Assembly (NCBI GenBank): GCA_964035015.1 | Contig: CAXIUP010000135.1 | Coordinates: 780,411 to 844,410 of the forward strand | Length of the DNA: 64,000 nt | Source: Corallium rubrum | Lineage: Eukaryota > Cnidaria > Anthozoa > Scleralcyonacea > Coralliidae | Direction of reading: 5' to 3' | Shown here: in pieces, positions 4,901 to 51,671 of the stretch | Layout: each line of letters opens with the position of its first letter | Numbering within the stretch: position 1 is the stretch's first letter | Made by a program: the position numbers and the translations under genes | The notes under the pieces: model-generated | The model's database searches: none | The model's input: the letters and a program-made list of their open reading frames with translations, nothing else | What the model was told of the DNA's origin: nothing

Positions 4901-5360
4901 CACTCCATTTAACCCATTGATGCCTACAATATGTATATTAGCGCCTTTGACGGCTGCTTTTTTTTGAGCTCTTCAGTTTTTTATAGTTTTAGCTTTCCTC
5001 TCTTGTTCTGTCATCGATTTGGTTTGCCTAGGGACTACAATTGTTGTTTATCTTCGCTATGATGTTACTCTATTCGAGAAAATTTTTGTTATCCCTTCAA
5101 AATGTTTGGAAAACGTCCACCTTTGCCCGTTCTGCTTCGTTGGGCCGTCCGCTTTCTACGCAAGTTTGGAAGAATCTATCAACGCTCAAGATCCTCACTC
5201 CTTCGAAGGGTATACGTGGTGGAGTTCGTTCAAGAAGCTCAAGGAGCTGGTCTATTCCTTCACTTGTATCCTTACGATCACAAACAGTCTATTCTTTGAC
5301 AAATAACCAAAGGGTGCTAACTTTGAGAACTTATTAAGTATTCAATGCAAAGTCAGAAGC

Positions 5361-6765
5361 GTGACTTCTGGTAATTTGCATTCGTCTCGATATTTTGTTC
5401 CCTCTTTAATGATGTCCAATGTCATGTCACTGGCCCCTAAATTGGATGAGTTACGATGCTTTTTTGAGTCTAACAATCCCGACATTGCCCTAATTACTGA
5501 AACATGGCTGAACGACAACATCGACGACGCGGTAATTGACATTCCAAATTATTCAGTCACTCGTCTCGACCGCCAAAGTGCTAGTCACGGGGGAGTATGT
5601 GTTTATCTCAAATCTGACTTAAATTACATTGTTTTGCATGCGTTTACTCATCCAACTATTGAAGCTTTGTTGTTAAAGCTTCGCCCTTCAAGGCTTCCTA
5701 GAGGTTATAGTTGTTTAATTATCGCTGTAATTTACCATCCTCCATCGGCAAACGACCACCTGCTAGAAGAATATCTTCATGAATCGCTGTCGTCTTTGGA
5801 AAGCCAATTCCCCAATTGTGGTTTTGTGATCGGTGGCGACTTCAATCGAATGGATGTTTCTTCAATTCTTAACCATTTTAAATTCAAACAGTTGGTCAAG
5901 TTCCCTACAAGAGGTGACCGCATACTCGACTATATTATTACAAACTTATACGATTATTACCTTAATCCAAATAGAGCACCTCCCTTCGGCCTGTCAGATC
6001 ATTTCACGGTTGTGGTGAGCCCAGCAACACGCCGTCAGCAATCTCGTGGATTTGCAAAAAAGGTTGTGCCAATACGGAAAAAAACCTCTTCTGGTCTTCG
6101 TAGTTTGGAAGCCTATCTAAGTGAGTTTGATTGGATTTCGCTTTTTTCAAACTTTGACGATTCTGTCGATTCTGTTGATGCCCAGCTTGAAGCTCTTGAA
6201 ACAATTATTAAATTTGGCCTGGATTTATTCCTCCCAACCAAACTGGTTTGTTTTCATCCCAAAGATTTTCCTTGGATTACTCCTGAACTCAAACTATTAA
6301 TAAAGGATCGTCAGATTGCCTTGGCGACCGGAAATATGGAACTATTTCGCGAGTTACGAAATAAAGTAAATCGAACCAGGAAAGTTTGTAGGAAATGTTT
6401 TTATGATACGAATATTGATACCATCAAAAAATCTGACCCGAGGCAATGGTGGAAAGAGATCAAACGCTTGTGTGGGCTTCGTAAGACGTCTGCAGTGTTG
6501 CAAGTCAATCTTCCGGGTGGTCAAGCAGTTTCCTCATGTGAAGATAAATTACGTCTTGCTAATATTATCAATGCTGCTTTTATTAAGCCTACAGTCCATT
6601 CCGAACCTATCGACGCCCGATCTAAACTTAGTGTGGGAGACGACACCATTCCCTTTCAAGTCCATCCAGATGCTGTATACAATAAACTAACAAAAATCAA
6701 ATCTCATAAGGCTGGAGGTCCTGATGGTATTCCCAATTGGATATGGAATAAATTCCCTTCTATTC
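5361..6765 (+). pseudogene. LINE endonuclease and start of reverse transcriptase (5' part)
   Basis: This is an APE-like endonuclease domain. It contains NPDIALITETWL, a GGVCVY segment, GGDFNR near residue 158 and the LSDH signature near residue 212. A linker follows, then the first reverse transcriptase block (KAGGPDGIPN near the end). The frame runs into the IS3EU-like element at 6766; the apparent stop belongs to that element. Upstream frames at 5041-5340 resemble a basic leader, but a stop and frame change separate them from this start. The endonuclease nicks target DNA and primes reverse transcription of the element's RNA. Confidence 0.85.
6760..6765. repeat. Target duplication CTATTC, left copy
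   Basis: CTATTC at 6760-6765 recurs at 20679-20684, directly outside the TATGAGGGG... termini. A 6-bp duplication is characteristic of IS3EU-type animal transposons. Confidence 0.9.
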
Positions 6766-7110
6766 TATGAGGGGTGATTACCGCCAAAATCCAATACTGT
6801 ATTATGCAATTGCATTTGGCATTCTGCAATGGAAACTTTCGTTCTACAATTCTGTTTCACATTTCATTATGCTCATGCAACATTATACATGACTTGCATT
6901 TGGCATTCGGCGATGGAAACTTTCGTTCTGCAATTCTGTTTCACATTTCATTATGCTTTTGCAACATTATACATGACTTGCATTTGGCATTCGGCGATGG
7001 AAACTTTCGTTCTGCAATTCTGTTTCACATTTCATTATGCTTACGTCACATTATGCATGACGCTCAGTTGAACATTTTTTGGACTCCAGACCGCGTAGCC
7101 CTGGGACTAG
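6766..7110. repeat. Left terminal inverted repeat with three 84-bp units
   Basis: Each unit contains TGCATTTGGCATTC then GGAAACTTTCGTTC and TTTCACATTTCATTATGC. The right terminal repeat has the same sequence inverted, with only two units. The repeat ends near ACCGCGTAGCCCTGGGAC. Confidence 0.88.
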
Positions 7111-7156
7111 TTGTTTTCACTCTATTTTGCATTTTTGGCGCCTTCTTGTATCCAAC

Positions 7157-10100
7157 ATGGCGAATAGGGGCGCTGAAAACGTCGGTCGGGCAATGAACTT
7201 ACTTCGTGAAGCTACAGTGTTGCTTTCAGGCAATTCTGTTTCACTGAATCACAACCATGATCACAACACTGCCACTGGTAATCAAGCTTCTAATCCGTCA
7301 ACAAGCAGTACGAGTTTAGTAACGCCTACCATCGCTAGTGGAACGTCGAGCTGTCCATCTGGTTCGACTATTTGCCAGCCTGGAACCAGCAGCAACGGAA
7401 CAGAAACTGCTTTGCGTAATTTTCAAGCACTTTTTCGTCCTTACCAAAACGCCTCTGTACGTGATGTATTACACAAACCTCCAAACAAAAAGGTTTGCAA
7501 GCGCAAACAATCGACTGCTAGGGAAACGTGGACCCACGAAGTGTTATGTCTAGCCAACACGGCTCAAGAAGCGACGCCGTCGAGAGCCCAGAAAGAAGAA
7601 CTTCAACGTGCTGGGTTAGGGCGCAGCAAGATACGCTTTGATGGCAATGCCACTCCCAGGGCATTTAAGGAGAAGCTGGAAGAAGTATTCCCAAAGTTGG
7701 TAGACGGAGGGGGGTTCGAGCTTTTTCGACGAGGATCTTCAGCAAACGAGTTAGTTGAAATTCACCCACCACCGAGTGGTTACTCAGTACCTTTCCTGCG
7801 AGATTCCTCTGGTATAGGTCAAGCCCTAATCTTTGTACGGCCTCTTCAAATGAACCTTGACGTGTCACCTGGAAAAGTTGATGTCACTAACTTCGACTCA
7901 AAGGTAAATAAGCTCAGTTAAAGCTCTGTTTAATACATGTATTATAAATAATGCAAAATTGCATTTTTTATTTGCATAGGGGGGTTGAGGACCTTGGAAA
8001 AACCAGGGAAAATCCCAGGAGGGAGAGGATATGTGGCTTGGAATAAAAGTTTTAGGAAATTCCAGGAAGTTGCCTGAAAATGAGCTGTTTGGTCAAGCAT
8101 GTCCTCAACCTGTGAAAAAAATGCAATATGTCAGTATGTACTGTAGGTGTGTGCACGAAATGACATGATGGACATAAAAATGAAAAAAAAATCATTTGTT
8201 GCATATGCCATTTCATTTTATCTGTTATGTATTAAACCATGTACACTGTAGCAAAAAACTCACATGAAATTGGGTGGTAATCGACTATGTTTTATGTTTT
8301 ATAACTAGCAGTTAATATATCTAAACTGTTCTCCTTAGAGGTCCAGTAAGGGTCCTCCCCCATTGGTCCAGTGTTACTACAGGAGGAAACAGGACCTGTG
8401 GTGTTTGGTGGAGTCAAACGAACTTGAACCACTCTTATATGCGGCTAAGGTGAAATTTTAGGTTGCAGATCGCAGCAGTGAAAAGCATGTGCACTAACCA
8501 CTGTGCCACCCCCATGACACTTAAGCTTACTGTACATACTGTAAATTGGATTTGATTTTTTTTTCATACTAATACTGTATAACGGTTTGATTTTTCCTAA
8601 TATTTGCCTAATTTCTTGGACATTCCACTTTGGATTTACCCTTTCTCTTTTCATTCTATTTGAATTTTCATTGAAAATTGGAGGGGTGCCTAAAGATTGA
8701 ATGGGTCATTCCAGAAAATATCCATCCTCCCCCCACAGAAAAAATGGCAAATTTTTCTCCCCCTCTCTGGACATCCTACAATAATTTTAATTCTAAAGTT
8801 AATTTTACCCTATCCCCCTTCAGACAGTGCAAATTTCCTCTGAAATGTTCATACAAACATTGATTATTCAGTAAAAACCCGCGTATAAGAACCTACATTT
8901 TCCCAGGTCAGCCTGAATAGGTTCTTATATTTTTGATGCATAAGAAAAAATCAGGCTGTTTAGGTTCTTAAATAGGTTCTTATTTTTCAAAGACTGTGGT
9001 GTGGGTCATGAGTTTGTAGATACAGATGTATTACCTGGGTGTGGTCCTATATAGGTAAAATTATGATTAATGACTTCAGTAACATGGAATGGATTGACGT
9101 GATGTACAAAATTCAAATTCTATTACTCCATTGCAATACAAAATGCCCTTTTTACTTTTATTTATATTCAGTTTATACCTGATTTAGTGCTATTTAGCTA
9201 GATTAGCTTTGCTATTCTAAATAGCCAGTGCTTTAGTGATTTGTTTCAATGTAATTTAGAAATAACTTTTGTATTATAATTTTCTTATTGGCACAAATAA
9301 ATCTGTTCTGTTCTGTTCTGTTCTGTTCTGTTCTGTTCTGTTCTGTTCTGTTCTGTTCTGTTCTGTTCTGTTCTGTTCTGTTCTGTTCTGTACTATAATT
9401 GTAACTGTAACTGACCTCCCAAATAAGAATCTATTTTAAATTTCAGGCTGAACAGGTTCTTATAAAATGGGTGGTAGAATGCATATATACATGTATAGAG
9501 TATATTGTATGTTTAAATTTTGTAACTACTGTACACTTACATGTTACATGATTAACAACAATTTATTATTTTATTCTACAGGGGATCGAAGATGCACCAA
9601 AAGTGATTTGTGTCCATTGTAATTTGAATATTCCTGTTACTATGATGAGAAATCACCAAACAGAATGCAGTGGGTAAGTACGGTTTTCAAGTTATTTTGT
9701 ACAATTTTTAGATTAGTTGGATAAATACTACTGTAAAAGAGAAATTTTAATTGGTATGGGATAAAATATACAGTATGGTATACTGTACTGTAGGTACACA
9801 TATCCCACCTTTAGAAATTCAAAAGTACATGTACAGTATGTGTAATCTTATTAAACTCTTGTCAGTGGTTTTAGGTAAACTTCAAAAAACCAATTGGACA
9901 GATTTTTGGAAAAAAATTGCACAAGAGATTATCAGGCATTCCTTACATGCATGTGTATCCCTTTGCATGCTCCCATTTTACAATAGTTGCCAGGGGCGTC
10001 GGAAGTAGGGGGGCCTGTTGGTGGTGGTGGTGGGGGGGAGCTGAATATGTTTGCCCCCCCCCCCCACTTTTTAACAAGGCCAGTAATAAAGAAGGCCAGT

Positions 10101-13100
10101 ACTAAAGTTATGATTAACAAAATCCCTAACCCACGATTTTAAATAAAGATATAATAAAGAAATTTGAATGCAGATATTCAATGTCCAGAAAGTGTTGTCT
10201 TTTGAGTATTTTATGACGTTTTTGGACCTTTAGAATTATGTAAATCCTTGTCCTCAAATGCAGGAAATGGCATTTCAGAGACTCTAGATTTCAAAATTTC
10301 CCAGGGGAACATGCCCCCGGACCCCTCTAAAATTGTTTTGCCCCTCCACCCACTTTTAGTGTTGCTTCGACGCCCCTGATAGTTGCATATACTGTTTGGT
10401 TTTTTGTTTGTTTGTTTGTTTGTTTGTTTGGTTGTTTGGTTGTTTGGTTGTTTGGTTGGTTGGTTGGTTGGTTGGTTGGTTGGTTGGTTGGTTGGTTGGT
10501 TGGTTGGTTGGTTGGTTGGTTGGGTTTTTTTTTGTTTTTTGGGGTTGTAATATTTTTTTTTTGTTTTTTTGGGGTTTTTTTTTGGGGGGGGGGTTATGGG
10601 TGGGACACTTGAACTTTACTAAATTACTAAATATACTGGTTCAACTTCATCTATTTTGCAATATGTACACAATCCCACCCTCCCCTTCCCTTTACAATGT
10701 TGTCTAATGAAACGAGTTAACAATACTGGTGAAATTCAGCATAAACAATGGTATACAACATTGAACAGGAGGTTCGGGGAATTGGAAAACCGATAAATGA
10801 CACAAATGTCCCAATACTTTTGAAAATGATTGTAGCAGAAGTGTGCTGGGAAATTGACAGCATATCTTCCTCCCTAGAATTAACCAATAATTGTTAACTT
10901 AATTGTAACATGTTCTTATCCATCGGTGCCATTTGGCACTTTTTATTTTTTGCTATACCTAATGCCAGACGATTTTACTCGTCAAGGGATGAAGGGAAGA
11001 CCTCCTGACATGGTGGGGGTTAAAGGGTAAAAAATTAACAATAATCGTTAATTCTAGCCCTAATTCCAGACCTTAATCCTAACGTTTATAAACCTAAACC
11101 AGGAAAACAAACAATCATAATATAATATAAATTGTACATGTACAAAACATGTTGACTGATATTGGTAAGGTAGTTAAACATATCATCTACCAGTAAGTGA
11201 ATTTTGTATAACACATTGCCTTTAGAATATCAGCTTTAAGTGCCCAGACTGTGGTGGATAATCCTTGTTGTTCTTCTAGTTGTTGTGATGATGCCAATGT
11301 AGGTGATGAAATGGTACAGTATGTTTGATTTCTTTATTAGTGCACAAATAGAAGTTTTAACTAATACAGTAGAAAATAATTGCCAATTGTGGCATACTTA
11401 GTGTTGATCCGAAATTAATACATGTAAATTAATTTAAATGATTTATTGTTCCCTCAGCCAGCAGATATCAGAATGTCAATCATGTTGCCTCAACTGAAAC
11501 AAGCATTTCCAAATCATGATGAAACTTGCCTACAGTCTGCTCTGCAGGATTCCAATTTTAATTCAAGCAGAGCAATTGATATAATTTTAGGACAAGGTAT
11601 GTAGGTCAATGATACAGTACGATTATACTGTATATACAATAATTATATCTACAGGTACATTTCAGAATCATTGTTTCTTTCATAATTCAGCCACATACAG
11701 TACTGTAGCCTGGGCACCAAATGCACTGGTGTCCAGATCACATTCCCAAACCCTAGATGCTTTTGGCACTTCTTGTCCCCATATTATATTTTAGCGATGA
11801 TTTTTGGAGAAGTTAGAGTATTCGGGAAAAAGTGCTGGGCACCATGAAAATCCTGTTCAGATGGGTACTAGCTCTTGAGATAGTCCCTGTGCCTGGGCAC
11901 TGCTCAGTTTTTCACTCGGGTACAGTATTAAGACTAGTGCTGCCACCATAGAAACTCTTATTTACATTGCTTGAAACCATTGTAATGATCCAGTGTTCTT
12001 GTGTACATACTTTAATAGCCAGCTCCCCCTGGAGAGGTATAAGATCATGGGTCTTAGCCAGAGTAAAATTGTTAGAGGCTACAGTACTGTATCTAGACCA
12101 GACTACATGTACATGTAGATGAATTGAGACAATTGATTTCAGAATGTGACATACAGTATGCTTATGATTTACCAGTAAGTAGATACATGTACATTACATA
12201 ATATTTAAAACACAAGCAGGAGTGTTTTATCAGATTTAAAACTACGAGGGTGCAGCCTGAGTGTTTTAGATCTGATAAAACATGTGATGCGAGTGTTTTG
12301 AATGGCTTCAAAAATGATTCGTTATTGGATGTTATGTTCATTAGTATTCTTTATATAAAATTGTATGTTCATTAGTATTCTTTATATAAAATTGTATGTT
12401 CATTAGTATTCTTTACATAAAATTGTATGTTCATTAGTATTCTTTCTGACGTCAAGAAGTTTTATCAGGTATAAAACCACGGACATGGTACTGATTTCCT
12501 TTGTGTTTTCCTCGTGAATTATTGAGTTTTTGAATGTATATTTTATCTCTTTTAGATGTGAAAAATATTTCATCAAATTCAAGTGACTCAGAGGACCTAG
12601 ACCTTCCTCTTGCATATACTTCACACAGTGCCCACGAAAATACTGCAGAAAACACTGATCCTTTGCAAAAAGCAGTGGAGACATTCAGAACTAGAAATGT
12701 TGATTGCACCATTCCTCGTCAATTATTTTCTGTCTGTCGAAGTGATGGTGATGAAGATCTAAAAATGGATATATTCTCAGTCTACAAAAATCCTAACACT
12801 AGTCTAAGAGCAAGGCCGAGGGTCAGATTTGAAGGCGAGGAAGGTGTAGGTGCTGGCCCCACCAGGGAATTCCTTGTGTCGGCTATTAAAATAGCCCAAG
12901 ATGGAATTGGGTTCTCTCCAAAACCAGTGTTATACTTTGAAGGGGAGACTGACCACAAACTTCCAATTCATAACCAGGGTCTCAGACAAACTGGTAGTTT
13001 TCAAGCTATTGGACGTATACTTGGACATTCATTTCTGCACGATGGTCCAACTCTATGTGGGTTATCCCCAGCAGTTAAAAACTATTTCACATACAAAGCT

Positions 13101-15210
13101 GGTGATGATGTATCCACAAACCCACTTCCACTAGAAATCAAAGATATACCAGATGTGGAACTACAAATACTTTTGGAACAAGTAAGAATCACAACTAATT
13201 TTCAGAATCACTGCGGTCATGGCTTGCATCAATATGGTTGGGGTGGGGGTGGGGTGGGGTGTGCTGATCTGAAATTTTCAAATCCAACTGTAGAGTCCTC
13301 ACATTGCATTCATTGCATTTGTACAAAATATATATTTAATGCTCCCTTGTTCTTCACATACATTCTACGTTCTCTCCCCCCCCCCCCCAGATCCCTAGTC
13401 CCTTGCGGACTCACTCCAAAACCTGCTTGGGCCCTGGACACTACATCTCTCCCCAAATTAGTTAAGAATAACAACAAACAAAGCTAAACAAAATACCAAC
13501 AGTAACCTATTAAAGTAGTCAAGGTTTTCACACCAACACTATTCCTACTCAGTTAGCACTGAGAAAACCAGCACGTTTAAAGGACTTTATATAATATTAG
13601 CATATTATATAAAGTCCTTTAAACATGCTGGTTTTCTCCGAATGCGGGTAAGGCGCGTTGGCACACCCATCATCTTCTCTCCTCCCTTCTTGTTCGTTCC
13701 TGTTGCGGTGCATGAACTTGACTCATTGTTCGATGACATTGACTCGTTTCTCGACTCTTTAGTCTCTTTCTTTTGATCTCTCTTCGGGTGACCATCGCTT
13801 GCTGACATTCTTACTCCCAGCTTACAGTATATGCGGTAGGAGGTGTGAAAAAAAAGAGGAAGGCCAAGAACAACATGGGGATCAGGCAAGCCTGTGTAGG
13901 TGTCCTGGTACCTGACCAAAATACATTGTTCAGTAGTGGTCACTACTACCTGGTTTCTTTTCATTGGTTGGGCTATCCGAAACTCACATTCAACAAGTTT
14001 ACCCTCTGACTCCCAAGAGTGCCAATTGAATTGGCACTCTTGGTATTTTACTGTCTAACTCTCGGCACAGTGGGAGTCGAAGGATTAAGGCAAACAAATG
14101 TTAAGTCTTCAATGAACATACACTGTATACATGCATGTATAAACAATTTTTGAACTAAGAAGCCAAAGATTTCAAATTTACTAGTAGTACTATTATCACA
14201 ATTACTTAAAACAATTTTAAACTTAGATGTTGTATGCACTTCTAGAGACCTTGCACATACTGTAATTGGACTGTTTGTATATAAATAATTTATTTTACAA
14301 ATTTGTTTCATTGTACATGTAGCTGCAAGGTGAACCTAACAGTGGACAGTTACCTGCTGGTGTGTCTGACGACATAACACCCTATTTATTAGAGGCCGGT
14401 ATTGATGTTGAGCTTCTGCATACAGACAAAAAACTGATCATTCAAGGACTGCTCATATTCAATGTCATTGAGAAACGAAAGTTGGAGCTAGATGACATAG
14501 CAAAAGGTATGACATGTTAATTGTTATTTTGCTAGTACAGTATCCTGAATAAAGTTTATTCTGCATCAAATCTGAAATCTTACCCCTACTTTAGGAAATG
14601 ACAATCCTTATTTAATTAACCATTGCAGGTTTGGAAAGTGTGGGTTTAAAGTCATTCTTGGAGAGTAATCCTCAGTGTGTTAACTTGGTATTTCCAACAG
14701 AAAGAGAAACCGTAATTTCTGGTGAGGAAATGAAACTGAAAATACGGTTCCAAGAGGCTGACTTATCTGAAAGGAACCAAAAAGCTAGAGAATTGTTTCT
14801 CATGTATATTGACCATATTGAATGCCGGAATGAAGGTGAGATACTACAATTGTCTGGTGCATAAGCTCATTTGAAAACGGTTTTCATAATATACATGTAC
14901 AGTACAATACACAGTAGGTTTCCATTGCTTTCATGAAATATTTAATAATACTGTTATTTTTGTCGTTTCATTTGCAGATGGGGCACAGTTGGCAGACCTC
15001 TGTTGTTTTTGGACTGGTTGCAACCAATTACCACCCCGTTCAACGATGCTGACTGCAAAATTTGATGAAAGTGGTGACATACTTTTACCCATGGCTGAAA
15101 GTTGCTTTCTGTCCCTTACACTGCCAGTGAAACATACAACATTTCCTGATTTCACCAAAAATATGGATGTGGCCTTAAAATATGGCTCTAAAGGCTTTTG
15201 CTTTACATGA
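7157..15210 (+). CDS. HECT-type E3 ubiquitin ligase with zinc-knuckle and CUE-like segments (8 exons)
   Basis: My model joins 7157-7903, 9582-9673, 11226-11313, 11458-11596, 12556-13181, 14323-14506, 14629-14835 and 14978-15210. All junctions are GT-AG and phases match throughout, giving 771 aa. The N-terminus is Ser/Thr-rich. Exon 2 has a C-x2-C-x12-H-x4-C knuckle (CVHC...HQTEC). Exon 4 is CUE/UBA-like ([14 protein letters not shown] then SRAIDIILG). Exons 5-8 form a HECT domain ([28 protein letters not shown]), with a probable catalytic cysteine in [11 protein letters not shown] near the C-terminus. HECT enzymes pass ubiquitin from an E2 to a substrate through this cysteine. The start at 7157 has an A at -3 (AACATGG); a longer frame opens at 7079 inside the terminal repeat. 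The protein resembles the G2E3-like proteins that are numerous in coral and fish genomes. Its role in the transposon is unknown. Confidence 0.8.
8310..8520 (-). repeat. tRNA-derived SINE copy in intron 1 of the HECT gene
   Basis: On the minus strand a tRNA-like head (GGTGGCACAGTGGTTAGTGC, an A-box-like segment) begins near 8517. A core containing GTAACACTGGACCAATGG and TTACTGGACCTCTAAGGAG runs to about 8320. The same core recurs at about 29563-29700. This is an old, diverged copy. Confidence 0.5.
8868..9480. repeat. Degenerate repeats and LINE 3' end with (TTCTG)n tail
   Basis: CAGTAAAAACCCGCGTATAAG at about 8870 and GGTTCTTAT-containing pieces to 9465 look like parts of an inverted-repeat element; a related end (TTATACGCGGATTTTTACTG) lies near 56176. 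In the middle, sequence ending GGCACAAATAAATCTG runs into about 17 TTCTG units (9304-9390), the usual form of a truncated LINE 3' end. Confidence 0.5.
9991..10378. mobile_element. 388-bp hAT-type non-autonomous element
   Basis: The ends CAGGGGCGTCGGAAG and CTTCGACGCCCCTG are near-perfect inverted repeats. ATAGTTGC at 9983-9990 is repeated at 10379-10386, an 8-bp duplication as in hAT elements. It contains poly-G/C runs and a CATGCCCCCGGACCCCT segment like the hAT at 24892-31129. It sits in intron 2 of the HECT gene. Confidence 0.85.
10398..10600. repeat. (GTTT)n / (GGTT)n microsatellite
   Basis: Tandem GTTT then GGTT units, followed by poly-T and poly-G runs. The ORFs predicted here (poly Gly-Trp-Leu-Val) are artefacts of the repeat. 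Confidence 0.9.
13561..13638. repeat. 78-bp near-perfect hairpin
   Basis: GAGAAAACCAGCACGTTTAA is mirrored by TTAAACATGCTGGTTTTCTC around a 4-bp centre. It lies in intron 5 of the HECT gene and may be a tiny palindromic element or the end of a larger inverted-repeat element. Confidence 0.7.
13998..14087. repeat. Degenerate CCCTTT-CACTCCC-type MITE copy
   Basis: ACCCTCTGACTCCCA on the left and GGGAGTCGAAGGATTAA on the right are diverged versions of the termini of the TTAA-flanked MITE at 16522-16633. An internal hairpin (AGAGTGCCAATT / AATTGGCACTCT) is present. Confidence 0.5.
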
Positions 15211-16517
15211 CAATGGTAATATTACAGAAAGATTAATGCAATACTGTAATACGTAGTGGAATACGACTTACATATAACATTCATGAAATAGTAACCACCA
15301 GACTAATCATGAAACTTAGTAGTCATCTGTTCACCTTTTGCTTAATTTATTGTTGAGTTTTAGTTTCACACTACAGAAAAGTCACACTTAGTGGTCATCT
15401 GTTCACAGTCTGTTAATTGTTGACTTTTAGTTTTGCAGTACAGAAGTGAGAAAAAGAAAGGCACAAGCCAAGGGTGAAAAAGCGGGGGAGGGGGAAGGGA
15501 ACCTGCACGTATAGAAAAATTCCACATAGGTTGAAACTCGAATTAATCAGTTACATGTATAACCGGGATTTATTTTTGGAACGTAAACAACATACTGTAC
15601 CAAAATAGGCAAAATACACTTAAATTGGTTGTTATTTAGTTACATGAGCATTCCAACATGGAGTACAAAGCATTCTGTTCTTATCTTTTCTCTTTGGATT
15701 GACCAAATTGTTACCCTATCACTTCTTTCTACTGAAACGCCAACCAAAAGTCGTGTTTTTGCCAACACAGAAAAATCAATAGCTATTCTTTCCCATGGCA
15801 AGATTCCCATCCTTTCCAACGCAAGATCTAATGATTTTGCTACGATTTTTAATTCAATTAATAGCATGACCCTTCTCAATGAACCGAATGGTCATTAATT
15901 ACCTTGGAAACATGACTTAAAATCTTATGTACTGATCAATTTGAAACTTTAACATCACCTGGGCACACCCCAGCAAACTGGTAATATACTTTGTACTTAA
16001 ATAAATAATAGTTTTTCTCTAATTTTTCTCTATTATGTTTTCCACCCCCATTGTTTGCAAAGAAAATGGCCGTTCTGCTAAGCCACCGGTAATTCTGATA
16101 GGTTGTATACAGGCATTCCACCCCCAAAATGCGTGAATTAAGAAAAGGAGACTTCAAAACCTGGGTATGGGGTTGTGGAGACTTCCAGTTCAAATCTCCC
16201 TATCTACCAAATTCCCCACCCAAAGAAGGTGTCAAGTCAAATTCCCTACTGCCCAGAGACTACTAAGTCAAATTCCCAAGGTATCCGGGGGGGGGGGTAT
16301 GTTGAAGTTTCAAATTGACCAGTACATTATCTGCCCATTGAAGAACATAATAACTTTTAACAATGTTTTACAACAATGGCAAAGGTCTACACGAGCAATA
16401 TTATTGACTATTTTTTAGAGTCTGAACTTAGCAAGTCTTAACTTAGTTAGAAGGACTATTATCAGGCTGTGTGTTATGTTCTTACAAAAATTATGTTTGT
16501 AAAAATAAGTCATTTTT
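15211..16517. other. Region between the convergent genes of the IS3EU-like element
   Basis: This follows the HECT stop codon. Short ORFs at 15629-15898 and around 16000-16400 lack any recognisable motif. Polypurine and poly-G stretches are present. I see no gene here. Confidence 0.5.
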
Positions 16518-16521
16518 TTAA

Positions 16522-16633
16522 CCCTTTCACTCCCACATACAGAATTTTCCGTACTTTATTCTTTTATTCTGTCTAACACTAGACAATTTTAACCGTCAAT
16601 GAGAGAGCTCCCGGAAAGTTGGGAGTGAAAGGG
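16522..16633. mobile_element. 112-bp TTAA-flanked MITE
   Basis: The termini CCCTTTCACTCCC and GGGAGTGAAAGGG are perfect inverted repeats flanked by TTAA at 16518-16521 and 16634-16637. TTAA duplication suggests mobilisation by a piggyBac- or Kolobok-type transposase. A close relative lies at 60984-61101 and a decayed one near 14 kb. Confidence 0.8.
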
Positions 16634-16784
16634 TTAAATACTGGTATCACTATTTTCCCTGAGGACTGACCCTAAGAATTTGTGCCCTGAAGCATCAAAC
16701 TGCCCGACCCTACAGCATGCATATATGTAATCAAAATTACCATAATAAACTTTTTTTTTTCTAAAAGAAACAGTAATCTCTTAA

Positions 16785-17469
16785 GGTCTTCGTTAAGGTT
16801 TGCAGGGTCATTTCTGTAAAGCGTTCTCAATTCATCAGAATTTATGCCAGAAAAACAAAACAGATATCGTTAGAAAGCTATGAATTTGTAGAATACAATG
16901 GTGTCTTTGATTTCGCGATAAACGCAAACCATTAATAGTTGTGAATTTTTAAATTAAAACCAGAGGACTTAACTTGGGGCAACTTAAGTACAAAGCGTTT
17001 CATTTTGTTCAAAATCTTTTTTCGCAGTTCGATTCCGAGATAAATTTCCAGCAAAACGGTGTCAGTGTTTTTTTGATATGTCGAGTTTTGCCAAATTTAT
17101 TGACGATCAAAGTTGAAAATGCTGTATTTCGACCAACATCCGGACAAAATAAGTCATAAATTCGAAACCAGGTGATAAAATTAATAAAAAACACTGACAC
17201 CATTTTGCTGGAAGTTTATCTTGGAATCAAACTACAAAAAAGATTGTGAACAAAATAAAATGCTTTTTACTTGAGTCGCCCCGAGTGAAGCCCTCTGGGT
17301 TTAATTAGAAAATTCGCAACTATTAACAGTTTGTGTTTATCGCAAAATCAAAGACGCCATTGTATTCTACAAATAGCTTTCTAACCATATGCATTTTATT
17401 TTTCTGGCATAAATTCTGATGAATTGAGAGCACTTTACAGAAATAACCCTGAAAACCTTAACAAAGACC
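16785..17469. mobile_element. Foldback element 1 of a TTAA-sharing pair
   Basis: Most of the 685 bp is a long inverted repeat: the left arm (GGTCTTCGTTAAGGTTT onward) matches the complement of the right arm (CAAAGACC at its end) over about 300 bp with scattered mismatches. TTAA flanks it at 16781-16784 and 17470-17473. Open frames in it on both strands are mirror copies of each other and not genes. Confidence 0.8.
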
Positions 17470-17473
17470 TTAA

Positions 17474-18059
17474 GGTAGCAATAGGGTTATCCGGTATCGT
17501 TTTGTAAACAGCTGGCATCGCGCCACTATTAAGGTGATCGCAAAGTGTCATACACCAATTTAAAGCCAATTAACCATGGAAGACGATTATAAAATCTAAA
17601 ATTATAGAAAATTTAATGGTTATCCGTTGTATTTACCGAAAGAAAAAAGGTTTTTGGCTTCACAAGTTTATAGTTTTGAAATTTATATCATTGTAATCGC
17701 TGATAAATTATCTACAAAACTGTGTCAGCGATTTTTGGAATTCTGTTTCATTCATTTTTTACCAACGATTTACGTTGTAGTCACAATATACATATTTCAC
17801 AACTTGTAAATTCAAAACGCGATAAAATCAAAATTATGCAACTAATAAAAAATCGCCAACACGTGTTTGTAGAAGAGTATGTACTTAGTAATGCCAAACG
17901 TTTCAGTGAAAAATGTTGAAACGCTGCAATGTTCTAACTGTTGAAAAACACAAATTTTGGCAAAAAATCGAAATTTTTGTCACTGACAGATAATGTTGCA
18001 CTTGTTTAAAAATTGGGAAAAAAGAAGAGATTTTTTACATTTTCCCCCCTATTGCTACC
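17474..18059. mobile_element. TTAA-flanked element 2, directly abutting element 1
   Basis: The termini GGTAGCAATAGGG and CCCTATTGCTACC are inverted repeats. TTAA lies at 17470-17473 (shared with element 1) and at 18060-18063. The right-hand TTAA overlaps the stop codon of the IS3EU-like transposase (TAA read from 18062 to 18060), so the insertion sits exactly at the end of that gene without altering the protein. Confidence 0.8.
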
Positions 18060-20393
18060 TTAATCAGTTGTTTGTAACCGTTCAGATATGAACTGCAGTA
18101 CCTCCATATAAATATCTAATCCATGACTCTGGGATAGACGTTGAGGGTTGATAGTCCTTCTAAGTTCAGACCATTGCTCCTCATTAAAAGATAATCTTGT
18201 TTCAGGAATGTCCACATGATTCTCATTATCAGGCTGTGTTGCAACAGGGCCTTCCCAATCAACACCATAATCATCTATGTCAACCTAAAAGTTTTTGAAA
18301 TGTCCATTACACAAAACTTAATAACAACTTTGGCAACCAAATTGCTTACCTCTCTGTTAAATTCTGTTGCAACTCTGCCAGTTGAATTTCTACATGCTAA
18401 CATACCACGTATCCACAGCTGCTCAGGAGAACTGTTCTGCTCACTACTGATAGGACCAGTGTTGTGCCCTGCTTTGAAAGTTGCTAAACTATGGTTGATG
18501 CGAGGTAAATAAACAAAATGAAGAGCCACTAAGTGGCATTCGTTTGAGGGATCCAGAATTCCTGATTCTTCCATGAAATAAAACAAGTGATAGAAGAGAT
18601 GTGTGCATCCAGCAAACAAATCTCTCCACAACCGTTCGATTCTTTGGTTGTGGACACTGCGACCGGTAATATGACTTCCTCTATCTGGGCCACGCAGTGG
18701 GTGTGTTAACATGAACCATGCCACATCAACGTTCTCGCCACCTTTGTCAGATCTCACTCTTGAAGGCAAACCAAACTGAGTGACTGCATTTGAAAAATGT
18801 TGATAAACAGTTGCAGCTTTATTGTTTGTGGAACAAGCCAAGAAAACAATCATTCGTGAAAACCCATCAATACCCCCATGTATTACAAACCTCCATCTAT
18901 ATAAAACAATGGTAATAGATAAAATCATAAATTAATTAGTCAGTTTATCATAATCATCTTTTTTATCTTTGCTAGAGTTCTTTTGAGCTCTTGCAGATGA
19001 CATAAACATCACCATGTTGGGTGGCAACTTCAGAGTTCCAATGTTTACTTGACCAAATAATGAAATGGAAAAGCTTTTGTTTATGGATTCACCACCCAGC
19101 TTGAGAATGCATGCAAGAGCTGAATATAATTGTAAACACCCATACCATAGATAGTCTAAATAAACTGACAAAATTTTACAATTTTTTAAATTTTTGAGGT
19201 ACAGTATTTTAATTTTTTTTGTAATTGAAACATCACATTATGCTTTGTCAATGCTTCTTTTACACTTAGTCAAAAATGGTATATTGAAGGACTGATTTTT
19301 AACTGAAATAAAGATTTAAATTTAAAAAAAATCTAAATCAAAATTGTAGGTTCGTCTACCCTTTTAAAAATCTAAAAATTGTCAGAATAAAATCGCGAAA
19401 TGTCTCACTATTGTCGGACTTGGAGGTAGATCTCTGACGTTTTTAAAAGCTTATCTTGAACTATATACAATATATTTCACAACAAAACTGTCATTTTACT
19501 TCATATATACTTTAAAATATTTAAGTAACGTTGTTTTGACTTTGCATTTCATTTATACCAGTACTGTATAGTACAGTATTAAAACATGAAATACATGATC
19601 ATTCATATTTTTAAGTTGAGGATTCATTTTCACTAAATTTTCTAAACAGATAGCATTTAAACAGAATGTCTTACCTTATCAGCTTGTGGTTACCATCAAT
19701 ATGCCACAAAGACAATGGACCTGGAACTGAATAACTTCTCCGTTGTATTACATTCAACTCCAGCGCCCGCAGCAAGGTCCCTTGCGGATCCACGCGACGC
19801 ATGGAGTTGCGAACCCTTTCTTGTTGTATTCGTATTCCTCGAGCTAACAAGTAACCGGTCATTCTCTTATAACCAGTGTTCGGAAAATTTGACAATGTTT
19901 CTCGCACAACAGAGTCTAGTTCGTCTTGTGTAATATTGCTGTAAGATGCTCTAATTGAAATACCGAACTCTTGCAACCTTCGTTCAATGGTGCGTTGACT
20001 TACCCCAAGTAGCACAGCCATTTGTCTGGCAGTAAAACGTCTTTCGACAAGAAAGGCCAACTGTTCGTATGGTATTTCAAATTTCGGTTTTCCCGAATTA
20101 CCAGTGAAAACCCTTGCCACTTGAAAGTTGTTTGACGTGTTACGTGGTACAGATAAACAAATCAGCGCCTCTGTAATACAGTGAAGAACATCTGCTTCGA
20201 TCATACCACACTGATAATATCTTGTTACCACGCTTAATAACCATTCTAACCTGTGCTGTATATTTTCCAAACACTCAGATTCTACGTTACGCACATCCAA
20301 CTGCTGTAAAATATTTAAAAGACAGTGCCTAACACGGTTTCTCACAAGTTCTCTCGTACGAATATTTATTTCTTCCTCGCTTTCGCCCTCCAT
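18060..20393 (-). CDS. IS3EU-like DDE transposase (integrase-core family, 3 exons)
   Basis: My model joins exon 1 (20393-19675), exon 2 (18896-18350) and exon 3 (18284-18060). All junctions are GT-AG with matching phases, giving 496 aa with no lesions. Exon 1 has a helix-turn-helix ([20 protein letters not shown] then RTIERRL) and the first acidic residue of the integrase core (WHIDGNHK). Exon 2 has the second (RSDKGGEN) and the glutamate (NQRIERLW) 36 residues later. Exon 3 is an acidic tail. It is expected to bind the terminal repeats, cut and join, and make the 6-bp duplication seen here. The family is often annotated in cnidarian and fish genomes simply as an integrase core domain protein. 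The start lies about 30 bp inside the right terminal repeat. The intact frame suggests recent activity. Confidence 0.85.
18931..19670. other. Intron 1 of the IS3EU-like transposase
   Basis: An AT-rich intron between exon 1 and exon 2 on the minus strand. It has no recognisable insert beyond simple AT-rich sequence. Confidence 0.55.
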
Positions 20394-20420
20394 TACTCCT
20401 CCATATTAAATACTTAGCCT

Positions 20421-20678
20421 GGTCCCAGGGCTACGCGGTCTGGAGTCCAAAAAATGTCAACTGAGCGTCATGCATAATGTGACGTAAGCATAATGAAATG
20501 TGAAACAGAATTGCAGAACGAAAGTTTCCATCGCCGAATGCCAAATGCAAGTCATGTATAATGTTGCATGAGCATAATGAAATGTGAAACAGAATTGCAG
20601 AACGAAAGTTTCCATTGCAGAATGCCAAATGCAATTGCATAATACAGTATTGGATTTTGGCGGTAATCACCCCTCATA
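20421..20678. repeat. Right terminal inverted repeat with two 84-bp units
   Basis: The reverse complement of the left terminal repeat, but one 84-bp unit shorter. The outer end is followed by the CTATTC duplication at 20679-20684. Confidence 0.88.
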
Positions 20679-20684
20679 CTATTC

Positions 20685-25557: not shown

Positions 25558-26805
25558 ATGAGGGAACAAGTTCGTATTGCTTTAAACAGCAAGGATACTG
25601 TAGCTCTACAAGAGCTTTATGATGAAATGTTCATGAAACTTTCGTCAAGTGCTTTACGCACTGAAGGTGAGCTTTTGCAGAGGATCGGAAAGGATATTTA
25701 TCGGAATATCAATGGCGAGATGTTTATACCAGATTGCGCAAAGAGCAAGGGGAATTCTCTGATTGCTTTGAGGTAAGAAACCCCAGCTATAAATATGATT
25801 TGAATATCATTATAATTTTTATGATAATTAGATTTACTCTTGGGTCTAGGCCTAAACTTCGCGGTGTGCTTGTATTTAGTTGTCCACAGTGTTCAGTCAT
25901 GAAACGTGTATCACAGACTAAAACTAGTGTATGCCAGTAATTTGATCTTGCTTGGAGATATGTTCATGGTTTAATATTAATTGTAATTTAATGTTTGTGA
26001 GAGTAACCCAGCTAACCAGGCAGTTTATATTCAAAAGACAAATTGAAACTTCAAACTGTCCAAAGCTGAGAAGTCATGTCATGTATTGTTTTTATTTAAT
26101 ATATTTTCTAGATCTGATGCTACTGGAAACTGCATGTACAGCTCGGTTTCCCTGTTACTTGTAGGTGACAATACTCTGGTTGATGATCTTAGAATTATGA
26201 CATCAATTGAGCTTTTCTTGCTGATTATTATGGTAAGCATCCTTGTTTCATTTCCACCTTTGAAGCCCATAAGAACGACCCTTTTGCATCACTGTCAGGT
26301 ATGGTTGCTATGTCTGTATCCTTTGAAGCCATTGATAGTGATACTAACTTGTCCTTAGATGAGTTAATTAAGGCAGAAGCTATGTATAATTTTAATGATA
26401 AAAAATGGTGTGGATTTTTATGCTTGTTGGCTTTGTCAACAGTTACTCGTAGGAATATTTTTTCGTATTACCCTGATTTTGATTCTAGGGTTAGGAGGTG
26501 GAGTTTGTTATTCAACCAAAAAATTGAACCTCGTTCGCCTGTAAAACCACTTTCTCCTGACCTATTAAGAGTATTGTTTTGTTATGAAGGAATTCTTCCT
26601 TTATCTGTTTTGTTTAAGCATAACCATTATGTACCATTAATCTGTGGTGCAGCGAAAAAAAGAAAATTAAATTCTTCTGCTTCTTCCATATCTAAAAAGC
26701 CTTGCAGGACTCAATCAAAATTACCATCTTGGCCTCCTATTAATAAAAACTTAAATGAGACAAAAAAAATTCTTCACAAGCACCCTCAACATCTGCCAAT
26801 TTATC
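25558..26805 (+). pseudogene. OTU/vertnin-like region upstream of the hAT transposase (frameshifted)
   Basis: A first exon (25558 to about 25772, ending at an AG|GTAAGA donor) joins in frame to an exon after TTTTCTAG at 26111. That exon encodes DATGNCMYSSVSLLLVGD, the OTU cysteine-protease signature (D-x2-GNC with the catalytic Cys). The frame then shifts near 26221, where the sequence continues as FEAHKNDPFASLSGM (about 26259) and runs to 26769 with ALSTVTRRNIFSYYPD and FKHNHYVPLI, as in vertnin-type proteins. A second shift in the A-run at 26761-26769 would join the linker to the transposase frame. I infer that the ancestral element made an OTU-transposase fusion or an adjacent OTU protein, now broken twice in this copy. 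OTU proteases remove ubiquitin. An AG|GTAAGT donor-like site at about 26860 allows alternative splicing instead. Confidence 0.6.
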
Positions 26806-26806
26806 T

Positions 26807-29260
26807 ATGCCAACTGAGTCTTTAAGTGATTGTTCTTCAGCTACAATGGTTACATCTACAGGTAAGTATGATATGGCTTCATCATGTACAGTAACTATGG
26901 TTGTCTCCTCTGATGTTCAAAAGGAAGTTAATTTATCTTCTCATAAAGATAATGCAACAAGTTCATCAGTTTCTTCATTAATTACTAACCCTCATGCAAA
27001 TTTAGAACATAGGAATGAGTTTGATATTGCTTTTTATAGGGAGAAGGTTAAAGGTAAGAAAAATTCTGAAATTGAAAATTTAATTAAAAATGTATTTGTT
27101 CCTGATGAATTATACTCATTCCCAAAAACTAATGGGAGAAATTTTCGCACCAGTTGGCTTAAAAGTCATTCTTGGCTTTGTTATTCACCCAGTTTAGATG
27201 GTGGTTTTTGCCTTCCATGTGTTTTGTTTGGAGATAGAATTCCAGATAAGTTATCTAAAATTAGGAAACTTTTTTATGAACCTGTAACATACTGGCCTGA
27301 TGCCAAAGCATGTTTTACAAGGCATGAAAATACGAAGGCAGCTGGTCTTCACCGTGAAACTACAGCCATTTTTACAGCATTTTTAGATAACCTCTCAGGG
27401 AAAACACAACCAATTGATGTCATGATTGATGCAAACATGAGAGAAAAAATTGCTGAAAACAGGAAGAAGCTTGTGCCAATTGTGGATACTATTATTACAT
27501 GTGGTCGTTTGGGGTTGTCTTTTAGGGGCCATAGAGATGATTCTAAATATCATCCAGAAGTGGGGGAATATTCTGAAGGTGGGGTAGGAAACTTCATTGA
27601 GTTAATTAATTATCGTGTTCGTGGTGGGGATGTAACCCTTAAGTCCCATCTCAGCCAATGTGCCAAAAACGCTTCATATATCTCAAAAACCACACAAAAT
27701 GAGCTTATTAAGTGTTGTGGCAAAGTTATTACTGATGAATTAATTGCTGAGATAAAGAAAAGTAAATTTTATGCTATTCTTGCTGATGAGGCAGCTGATT
27801 GCTCAAATAAAGAACAGATGTCCTTAGTGCTGCGATTTGTAGATGAGGAATTAAATGTAAGGGAGGAATTCCTTCGATTTATTCATTGCAAGGAAGGATT
27901 GTCAGGAAAAGACCTTGCTTCAGTTATTTTGAAATGTTTAAATGAAGATCTTACTTTAAATATTCAGGACTGTCGGGGGCAGGGATATGATGGTGCTGGG
28001 GCAGTTTCTGGCTGTGTTAAAGGTCTTTCCACAAGAATTGCTCGAATAAATAGCAAAGCTGTATATACTCATTGTTTTAGCCATCGATTAAATTTGAGCA
28101 TTTGTGGTTCTTGTTCTGTTCCCTGTGTGCGCAATGTTTTGGATCAAGTGAAGCAACTTTCCTATTTTTTCAATCTGTCCGAGCCAAGGCAGTTAATTCT
28201 TGAAAGTAATGTGTCTAAACATTGTCCTGATTCTAGAAAGTCGAAACTTAGAGATGTTTGCAGGACGAGGTGGGTAGAACGTATTCTGGGATTAGATACT
28301 TTTGAAGAACTTTTTGTTGCTATTGTTTTTACTTTAGAGGAAATGAGCTTCAATCTCGAGAAGAAATGCAACAGAGATACATCCAGCAAAGCAACATCAT
28401 TTTTGAAACTCATAACATCCTTTGATTTTATTGTTGGCTTAGTAGTAACAAGGTGTGTGTTTGATTTAACACTGCCTGTGACCGAGTTACTACAATCTAG
28501 AACCAATGATATTGCTGATGGGTTGCATTTAATTGAGTCACTAAAAAATTTAGCAATTTCAATCAGGAATAGTATTGACACTTTTCACACTAAATGGTAT
28601 GCTAAGGCTTTAGATTTAGCTGGTAAAGTTAACGTTGATGAAGTGAAACCTAGGACATGTAATCGTCAAATCAATAGAAGTAATGTTCCTGCAGAGTCTG
28701 TCTCTGATTATTTTAAGAAATCCCTTACCATTCCCCTAGCTGATCATTTGTATACAGAGTTAATAAACAGATTTGACACAGCTTCAACCAATGCCTATTA
28801 TGGTTTGTACATCATCCCTTCTAAAATGATTTGGTCACTATCCAGTCCTGAAAAGGTGGATTGGAAAGGGAAATTTTCATTGTTTTCATCTCTTTATTTG
28901 GATGATCTTCCCAATCCTCTAGCATTAGATGGTGAACTTGAACTCTGGGAGAAGTATTGGGAGACTAAGACTACATGCCATCCTGACAATATATCTTCCA
29001 CATTGAAAGATATTAACTTTCCTGGCTTTGAAAACATCAAAGTGTTACTGAGAATTTTAGCAACTATTCCAGTAACGTCTTGTGAATGTGAGAGAACATT
29101 CTCAGCTTTAAGAAGACTTAAAGATTACACCCGAAATAACATGGTTGCTGATCGGTTGAATGGGCTTGCTTTATTGTATGTACATCAGGAAATTCACCCT
29201 GATATTCAAAGAGTCATTGATGTGTTTGGTAGTGACAAAAGAAGGATTGCATTACTTTAA
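26807..29260 (+). CDS. hAT transposase, ZMYM1/DUF4371 type, 817 aa
   Basis: One uninterrupted frame. A TTF/BED-like zinc segment near residues 120-145 (SWLCYSPSLDGGFCLPCVLF) precedes a DUF4371 block (YAILADEAADCSNKEQ with the first acidic residue; GQGYDGAGAVSG with the second; CFSHRLNLSI). The C-terminal dimerisation domain carries the hallmark TSCECERTFSALRRLK near residue 760. It is expected to bind the CAGGGG ends, excise and reinsert the element. The frame is open upstream of the ATG at 26807, so the true N-terminus may lie in the OTU-like region. The intact frame inside a nearly perfect palindrome suggests a young insertion. Confidence 0.9.
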   Translation: MPTESLSDCSSATMVTSTGKYDMASSCTVTMVVSSDVQKEVNLSSHKDNATSSSVSSLITNPHANLEHRNEFDIAFYREKVKGKKNSEIENLIKNVFVPDELYSFPKTNGRNFRTSWLKSHSWLCYSPSLDGGFCLPCVLFGDRIPDKLSKIRKLFYEPVTYWPDAKACFTRHENTKAAGLHRETTAIFTAFLDNLSGKTQPIDVMIDANMREKIAENRKKLVPIVDTIITCGRLGLSFRGHRDDSKYHPEVGEYSEGGVGNFIELINYRVRGGDVTLKSHLSQCAKNASYISKTTQNELIKCCGKVITDELIAEIKKSKFYAILADEAADCSNKEQMSLVLRFVDEELNVREEFLRFIHCKEGLSGKDLASVILKCLNEDLTLNIQDCRGQGYDGAGAVSGCVKGLSTRIARINSKAVYTHCFSHRLNLSICGSCSVPCVRNVLDQVKQLSYFFNLSEPRQLILESNVSKHCPDSRKSKLRDVCRTRWVERILGLDTFEELFVAIVFTLEEMSFNLEKKCNRDTSSKATSFLKLITSFDFIVGLVVTRCVFDLTLPVTELLQSRTNDIADGLHLIESLKNLAISIRNSIDTFHTKWYAKALDLAGKVNVDEVKPRTCNRQINRSNVPAESVSDYFKKSLTIPLADHLYTELINRFDTASTNAYYGLYIIPSKMIWSLSSPEKVDWKGKFSLFSSLYLDDLPNPLALDGELELWEKYWETKTTCHPDNISSTLKDINFPGFENIKVLLRILATIPVTSCECERTFSALRRLKDYTRNNMVADRLNGLALLYVHQEIHPDIQRVIDVFGSDKRRIALL

Positions 29261-32687: not shown

Positions 32688-33045
32688 AACTATAGTTTCT
32701 TTAGAAACTACAGTTGTCAAAACAAACTAAAGTTTGTTTAATATTTTCCAGTTGGAAAACTATAGTTCAGCTGTAAACAACTATAGTTATTGCATAGTAA
32801 CTATAATTTGATCTTAAAAACTATAGTTTTTATGAAAACTATAGTAATCAGGTAATAACTAAAGTTTCTGGAAGGGAAACTATAGTTCATTGCCCAAGTA
32901 AACTTTAGTTACAACTATAGTTTAATTTCCAGAACTATAGTTTGAACGAAAACTATAGTATTTTGCTGAAAAACTTTAGTTTTTTATTGAAAACTATAGT
33001 TTTGGATGGAAAACTATAGTTTCTGGCATGAAAACTATAGTTTAT
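32688..33045. repeat. Right subterminal array of AACTATAGTT palindromes
   Basis: About a dozen copies of AACTATAGTT and close variants (AACTTTAGTT, AACTAAAGTT) adjoin the right terminus of the 30.6 kb element, mirroring the left array. Confidence 0.85.
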
Positions 33046-33058
33046 TTTTGTAAGGGTG

Positions 33059-51345: not shown

Positions 51346-51671
51346 TTCAGAGAGACCACCAGCGCCAAGAATTATAATTTTCGAATATCTCGCCATATTT
51401 GTTCAAGGAAGAAGATGCCTAATAACTTTTAAACTACGCATTGCTGAGTAGAGTTTAGTTGGTCTCTCCGGTGCTTCGAGGGTTTTTCACCGGGTTCTCC
51501 GGTTTTCCTCCCTTCCGTAAAACCAACACCTAGGTCTTCGCTGTAATTCGTGAGCCGATATGTGTCGTATGGCGGCTGCCTGAGCACCTTTAATATGCCT
51601 TCGACTCGGCCATGTCAAAAATGATTGTAAGGCGCATTTGAACACACACATTATACACGGTCGGTCTGAGC

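Follow-up and report, generated by a model that had tools for sequence, protein, structure and literature searches.

Organization of the element

The window analysed here, a 64,000-nucleotide stretch of Corallium rubrum DNA (contig CAXIUP010000135.1), contains a complete 13,913-bp DNA transposon of the cut-and-paste type that carries two genes, one for a DDE transposase and one for a predicted HECT ubiquitin ligase. An initial annotation, made from the sequence of the window, had described the segment as an IS3EU-like transposon with the ligase gene as a built-in component, and the proposed boundaries of the element were borne out. The features of the locus, in window coordinates, are listed below (TIR, terminal inverted repeat; LINE, long interspersed nuclear element).

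5307..6765, plus strand: host LINE split by the element, endonuclease part (Pfam); the LINE resumes after 20684
6760..6765, plus strand: target-site duplication CTATTC, left copy
6766..20678, no strand assigned: complete IS3EU-type DNA transposon, 13,913 bp, TATGAGGGG...CCCCTCATA
6766..7110, plus strand: left TIR, with three 84-bp internal units at 6810-7061
7157..15210, plus strand: predicted HECT ligase gene, 8 exons, 771 aa
9582..9673, plus strand: exon 2, C2HC zinc motif CX2CX11HX3C, UBZ-like (alignment A3)
11458..11596, plus strand: exon 4, CUE domain (Pfam PF02845, 1.7e-7)
12556..15210, plus strand: exons 5-8, HECT domain with the predicted catalytic cysteine in exon 8 (PF00632, C-lobe alignment, E6AP profile)
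18060..20393, minus strand: DDE transposase, exons 20393-19675, 18896-18350 and 18284-18060, 496 aa
20419..20678, minus strand: right TIR, with two 84-bp internal units at 20467-20634
20679..20684, plus strand: target-site duplication CTATTC, right copy

The termini of the element are TATGAGGGG on the left and CCCCTCATA on the right. When the two TIRs were aligned over their first 342 positions, 256 of the 257 aligned bases were identical, and the gap corresponded to one 84-bp repeat unit, of which there are three in the left TIR and two in the right one. A perfect 6-bp duplication, CTATTC, is present on both sides, and joining the flanks with one copy of it restores a single LINE reverse-transcriptase frame through the empty site.

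The two genes were said to start just inside opposite TIRs and to converge. We observed the same: the HECT ATG is located 391 bp and the transposase ATG 285 bp from the respective terminus, while 2,849 bp separates the two stop codons. Both reading frames are open in this element.

Transposase and assignment to IS3EU

The full DDE transposase reported initially was found as an open three-exon frame of 496 aa. It matches the Pfam family rva_4 at 3.3e-84, above the curated cut-off, and has a catalytic triad D233, D290 and E327, with 36 residues between D290 and E327. No HHCC pattern was found in the first 225 residues of the protein.

IS3EU elements are described, in the accessible part of PMC10045372, as having TA..TA ends and usually 6-bp target duplications. 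The window element has such ends (TATGAGGGG..CCCCTCATA), as do two other families of the same genome (TATGGAGTT and TATGGGGTG). The 6-bp duplication is perfect in the window element, in all eight of its further copies described below, and in the two of five other families whose ends were located. The transposase has an integrase-like DDE core with no HHCC upstream; the HHCC zinc finger that precedes the DDE core in Ginger1, as it does in Gypsy integrases, is absent. The label IS3EU-like therefore fits on termini, duplication length and transposase core, the three properties on which we base the assignment in place of a tree with the Repbase IS3EU and GingerRoot transposases.

Gene model and domains of the HECT protein

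The HECT gene is modelled with exons at 7157-7903, 9582-9673, 11226-11313, 11458-11596, 12556-13181, 14323-14506, 14629-14835 and 14978-15210, and all introns of the model are of the GT..AG type. The weak part is exon 3 (11226-11313), around which 132 splice combinations are compatible with the frame; the best candidates for this exon in two related copies, C25 and C208, scored -2 and 16, compared to a self-score of 157. The claim of an intact eight-exon protein of 771 aa thus stands as far as the open frame and the intron borders are concerned, but exon 3 is weakly supported.

The C-terminal HECT domain (residues 487-769 of 771) was detected by PF00632 at 5.9e-10, with 39.7 bits against a cut-off of 23.9. 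The presence of a HECT domain with a catalytic cysteine was confirmed by this match together with the alignment of the cysteine in the C-lobe and to E6AP. For the CUE-like ubiquitin-binding segment, PF02845 matched at 1.4e-5 in the full protein and at 1.7e-7 with exon 4 alone (31.2 bits against a cut-off of 21.1), so the assignment holds for the window protein. Among relatives, the CUE score of the protein at transposase locus L059 was 15.7 bits, below the cut-off, and the intronless HECT protein P0001 had no CUE match in Pfam at E<=0.1.

The motif of exon 2 was inspected in alignment A3, which consists of P0001 and 42 of its 43 database relatives (the weakest one, P0045, was dropped). Among the 41 of the 43 rows that span the motif, the first two cysteines and the histidine are kept in 40 and the last cysteine in 38. 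Pfam gave weak matches to XAF1_C and zf_UBZ, below the cut-off. The motif had been called a zinc knuckle; its spacing is nearer to that of UBZ/C2HC fingers than to a CCHC knuckle, and we do not retain the name. A likeness to G2E3 had also been suggested. G2E3-like ligases have PHD fingers ahead of the HECT domain, and no PHD finger was found in the 771-aa protein by Pfam at E<=1; judged by PHD fingers only, the likeness does not hold.

The N-terminal region of the HECT protein (window 7157-7903) shows a conserved pattern, WTHDFCLL ... AGLG ... FPKL ... YIRP, in several families (also seen in P0001, L052, L056 and L058). This region had no Pfam match in the window protein, in P0001 or in L058:947-1783.

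Copies of the element in the host genome

The 474-Mb host genome was searched for related elements; the in-depth analysis concerns this one genome. A search with the TIR produced eight further copies for which both ends were retrieved, all flanked by perfect 6-bp duplications. Two more matches, C28:15339107 and C13:407784, were to single ends.

Both genes in the same arrangement are present in four copies: C299:504455-517357, C208:57219-69450, C25:11226059-11236826 and C203:1052351-1085686. Exons of the window HECT gene have counterparts in C25 and C208. The C203 copy is 96.6-98.6% identical to the C208 copy in long aligned blocks, occupies a different site and carries a large insert. This 33-kb copy has a large nested insertion, of which the middle 16 kb lies outside the sequence that we read.

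The remaining copies are reduced. The element C28:13219026-13223787 has a transposase and no HECT gene; the right end repeats the left end in inverted orientation, which marks the element as a deletion derivative of the C208 family. Similarly, C1:32171350-32173594 is a 2.2-kb deletion derivative of the C25 family in which both first exons remain, while the copies in C12 and C23 are short and have neither gene. We considered the HECT-free copies as a possible ancestral form of the element and rejected this, given that C28 and C1:32171350 are deletion derivatives and that the C12 and C23 copies are short and gene-less.

Frequency and orientation of the gene pair

The initial annotation had proposed to look for HECT genes within ~15 kb of this integrase family. 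For the transposase, 86 of 1428 and 85 of 1410 candidates were scored in two lists; the first query gave at least 93 matches and, after clustering, at least 83 loci. For HECT, 58 of 742 and 67 of 574 candidates were scored; the two queries had at least 61 and at least 68 matches, or at least 89 loci.

In the first lists there were 23 transposase-HECT pairs within 15 kb, involving 22 HECT loci, and all 23 were convergent, compared to 0.12 pairs expected under independent and even placement. The second transposase list added 20 loci, which formed three more pairs with the 67 HECT loci still unpaired, again all convergent. Therefore, among the matches listed, 26 of 26 pairs within 15 kb converge, although the pairs are not independent, as several are near-identical copies of one family. 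The proposed check came out in favour of the association for the 25 of 89 listed HECT loci that are paired; on the other hand, 64 have no listed transposase within 15 kb, and we return to these below. For two of these loci a convergent transposase was found farther away, at 17 kb (C8) and at 26.7 kb (C203, the copy with the insert).

HECT genes in divergent IS3EU families

Many of the transposase loci are single open frames of ~500 aa with 41-50% identity. For the 29 loci L022-L050, read with 1.5 kb of flank, the end of a HECT gene converging on the transposase was found in 10, and in 11 when a broader profile was used, one of these matches being weak. Five of the 29 represent parts of the elements in the window, C25, C208 and C1:75127855.

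Longer downstream flanks were retrieved as a test for ten loci, two of them adjoining low-ranked transposases with no listed HECT match nearby. A convergent HECT gene was present in nine of the ten (L051, L052 and L054-L060). In the tenth, L053 (C246:4500-9700), the place expected for the HECT gene, downstream of an IS3EU transposase with an open frame, is taken up by ~5 kb of degenerate tandem repeats with GCTCA- and CCAGT-type units.

The 30 best transposase matches come from 28 loci, of which 24 have HECT; three were read over 1.5 kb and had no HECT, and one is L053. Over all 83 transposase loci, evidence of HECT was obtained for 32, or for 34 if L059 and L060 are included. The view of the ligase as a built-in component gains from both the flank test and the count behind the best transposases. 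For five divergent families we looked for the ends of the element. Two have ends of their own with perfect duplications, C1:48446242-48453918 (CATAAG) and C23:1827299-1835918 (CAAAAT), and in the former both genes are open, as in the window element; for the other three, no TIR ends were found within the retrieved stretches.

Co-inheritance, selection and the conserved cysteine

Co-inheritance was analysed in 17 elements that have both proteins; where a family had near-identical copies, a single one was taken. Loci L025, L026, L037 and L039 were left out as near-identical, and L059 and L060 came later. In the C208 transposase row, part of the sequence, derived from the interrupted exon 1, is out of frame. 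Distances between transposases correlated with those between HECT C-lobes (Mantel r 0.75), and none of 20,000 permutations gave a value as high. The trees of the two proteins had 5 of 14 splits in common, a number reached in none of 5000 label shuffles.

Ratios of nonsynonymous to synonymous substitution rates (dN/dS) were computed between the window, C25 and C208 elements. The values were 0.143 and 0.156 for HECT exons 2 and 4-8, and 0.112 and 0.104 for transposase exons 2-3, for the two of three pairs with finite dS; all are approximate because dS is near saturation, and in the third pair it is saturated for both genes. Judged from these ratios, the HECT gene is under purifying selection.

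The cysteine of the HECT C-lobe is present in all 17 elements, although C-lobe identity falls to 18%. It is also found in all 37 rows of alignment A3 that span the site, P0001 included, with two of these rows (P0019 and P0026) truncated or misaligned at the cysteine. A profile of 42 homologues matched the HECT domain of E6AP at 2.8e-17 and placed the cysteine on the TCFN motif of E6AP, whose cysteine we take to be the catalytic one. When pieces of the HECT region were compared with Pfam, seven of eight scored above the HECT cut-off (P0001, L052, L055, L056, L058, L050 and L034), and no Pfam HECT match was found for the N-lobe fragment of L054. The C-terminal pieces of L059 and L060 also exceeded the cut-off, and the N-lobe piece of L059 had no Pfam HECT match.

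Relatives in protein databases

A protein search with P0001 produced 43 relatives, 33 of which have a precomputed HECT domain; the named ones include Paramuricea clavata (an octocoral) and Oculina patagonica. Among the best 120 of 1003 transposase relatives, the names include cnidarians, sponges and fish. By eye, we noticed six pairs of HECT and transposase database proteins on contigs of exactly equal size (5151, 10225, 608551, 750594, 1605955 and 1861808 bp). The equal sizes suggest that these are the same contigs, possibly including some from a close relative of the host; if they are the same, the 5151-bp contig must therefore hold both genes side by side. The same type of search with the window's own HECT protein had no match, nor did a phmmer comparison of the 771-aa protein with the PDB, where the homologue profile did match. 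Two scans of viral contigs showed no relative.

Interpretation and alternative explanations

We conclude that the best explanation, with a probability of roughly 0.8, is an autonomous two-gene IS3EU-type transposon in which a DDE transposase is accompanied by a HECT ligase as an old and selected component. The recurrence of the pair, its convergence, the correlated distances and the purifying selection argue for such a component and against chance capture. The HECT gene appears to be a regular part of these elements, and the sequence comparisons suggest that it is standard equipment.

HECT genes are common in animals, and the window taken alone would be compatible with one element having captured a host HECT gene by chance, or with unrelated neighbours lying between coincidental repeats. 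But divergent families, each with TIRs and duplications of its own, show the same convergent arrangement, and the distances of the two proteins are correlated; we therefore rejected chance capture, the least probable of the alternatives. It is also quite improbable that the HECT fold has been kept as a ubiquitin-binding scaffold with no ligase activity. Such a pseudo-enzyme could account for the divergence of the domain, with Pfam E-values from 1e-5 to 3e-17 and N-lobe pieces of L054 and L059 that have no match, yet the cysteine persists in every one of the 17 elements and in every spanning row of A3. An alternative that we consider unlikely, though better placed than these two, is that the ligase travels as stable cargo and is retained through an advantage to its carriers that is unrelated to transposition, such as defence against viruses or competing elements. 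Purifying selection and co-inheritance fit this explanation and a direct role equally well, and fungal TET+ IS3EU elements are described, in the accessible part of PMC12730594, with an additional TET dioxygenase gene between the transposase and an alpha-kinase. A structural partner is suggested instead by the uniform convergence of the 26 pairs, each gene starting just inside the opposite TIR wherever this was mapped.

Several observations weigh against the two-gene transposon as we describe it. Interruptions were found in the HECT gene of three copies (C25, C299 and C203) and in the transposase gene of C208, as would be the case for old copies. Congruence between the trees of the two proteins is partial, which is as expected for ~75 residues or for some exchange, and dN/dS is approximate. 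There is no HECT evidence for 49 of the 83 transposase loci, mostly those whose downstream flank is outside the stretches read. The 64 unpaired HECT loci may be cases of unlisted partners, decayed copies, or stand-alone or host genes. It had been stated initially that copies lacking HECT, with the gene occurring alone elsewhere, would speak against a built-in ligase: the one HECT-less transposase copy read from end to end is a deletion derivative, in agreement with the two-gene transposon, but stand-alone HECT copies may exist among the unpaired loci.

For the two-gene transposon we propose the following mechanism. The transposase, to judge by its DDE core, would cut at the TA..TA ends and insert the element with a 6-bp target duplication. 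The promoter sequence is probably common to the two genes and their products probably arise together, because each gene starts just inside one of two near-identical TIRs; expression of the two would thus be driven from the TIRs. The ligase, by homology of its domain and cysteine, would accept ubiquitin from a ubiquitin-conjugating enzyme (E2) on the conserved cysteine and pass it to a substrate. Its most likely targets would be found in the nucleus: the transposition complex, or the host chromatin and repair proteins that this complex meets. Recruitment may depend on the conserved N-terminal region and on the CUE and C2HC parts, which would bind ubiquitin. The leading candidate substrate, at somewhat less than even odds, is the transpososome or the transposase itself; a host silencing or repair factor is a tentative second choice, and some other substrate is the least likely of the three. 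The ligase can probably act in trans, because deletion derivatives with correct duplications have lost HECT.

A broader and more speculative possibility, which we think has the odds against it, is that animal IS3EU elements were ancestrally two-gene elements, with HECT required for transposition or defending it. The superfamily would then pair its transposase with a convergent protein-modifying enzyme, HECT in animals and alpha-kinase in rust fungi, and many cnidarian 'host' HECT genes would be transposon genes or their domesticated descendants.

With a thioester-type ubiquitin ligase of its own, the element could change what becomes of its transposase, or of silencing and repair proteins of the host. 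The ligase has a gene to itself, under selection and paired with the transposase in many families of one genome, which opens its role in transposition to experiment. Counts of HECT genes in cnidarian genomes may include transposon genes.

Other features of the window

Outside the element, an open frame at 1112-2509 resembles part of a type-B DNA polymerase (Pfam DNA_pol_B_2, 4.3e-7; Endonuclease_7 weak, below the cut-off). The open frame at 33041-34504 had no Pfam match at 0.001 and looks, by eye, like a later part of a type-B DNA polymerase. An open 833-aa hAT-type frame is located at 26759-29260 (DUF4371 5.3e-25, hAT dimerisation 1.9e-8), a 676-aa minus-strand frame with a weak Transposase_21 match, below the cut-off, at 37922-39952, and a 1087-aa open LINE frame with endonuclease and reverse transcriptase at 51642-54905.

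Comparison with known systems

The initial annotation had noted that a prior description of the same two-gene element would remove its novelty. Among the open-access papers listed in our searches, judged mostly by title and abstract, we found no description of a HECT gene in IS3EU or any other transposon; subscription papers and Repbase reports were outside this search, and a prior Repbase annotation is possible. No HECT gene in IS3EU is described in the accessible part of PMC12062965.

The IS3EU elements of PMC10045372 resemble the element described here in their TA..TA termini, usual 6-bp duplications and integrase-like DDE core with no upstream HHCC. In its accessible text the transposase alone is described, and the words 'HECT' and 'ubiquitin' do not occur, whereas here the HECT gene is a regular partner. 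The fungal TET+ IS3EU elements (PMC12730594) are also similar: a transposase and a second enzyme gene are oppositely oriented, the duplications are 6 bp and the ends are TAYGG..CCRTA. As the second enzyme they have, however, an alpha-kinase; a TET/JBP dioxygenase gene lies between it and the transposase, and neither 'HECT' nor 'ubiquitin' appears in the accessible text.

Links between integrase-related DNA transposons and enzymes of the ubiquitin or SUMO systems have a precedent in Ginger1, some of whose transposases carry a C-terminal OTU or Ulp1 domain; according to the accessible part of PMC2836005, its authors proposed that the ubiquitin pathway takes part in transposition. In Ginger1 these are proteases fused to the transposase, while in the element described here a predicted conjugating ligase has its own gene, converging on that of a transposase with no HHCC pattern. 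Ubiquitin ligase (E3) activity is likewise tied to a transposase in the RAG1/RAG2, Transib and Chapaev group, as far as the accessible part of PMC4411706 describes it: a RING finger is found in RAG1 and in two subgroups of Chapaev, and RAG is a two-protein element. There the RING finger is within the transposase, whereas here the putative ligase is of the HECT thioester type and has a gene of its own.

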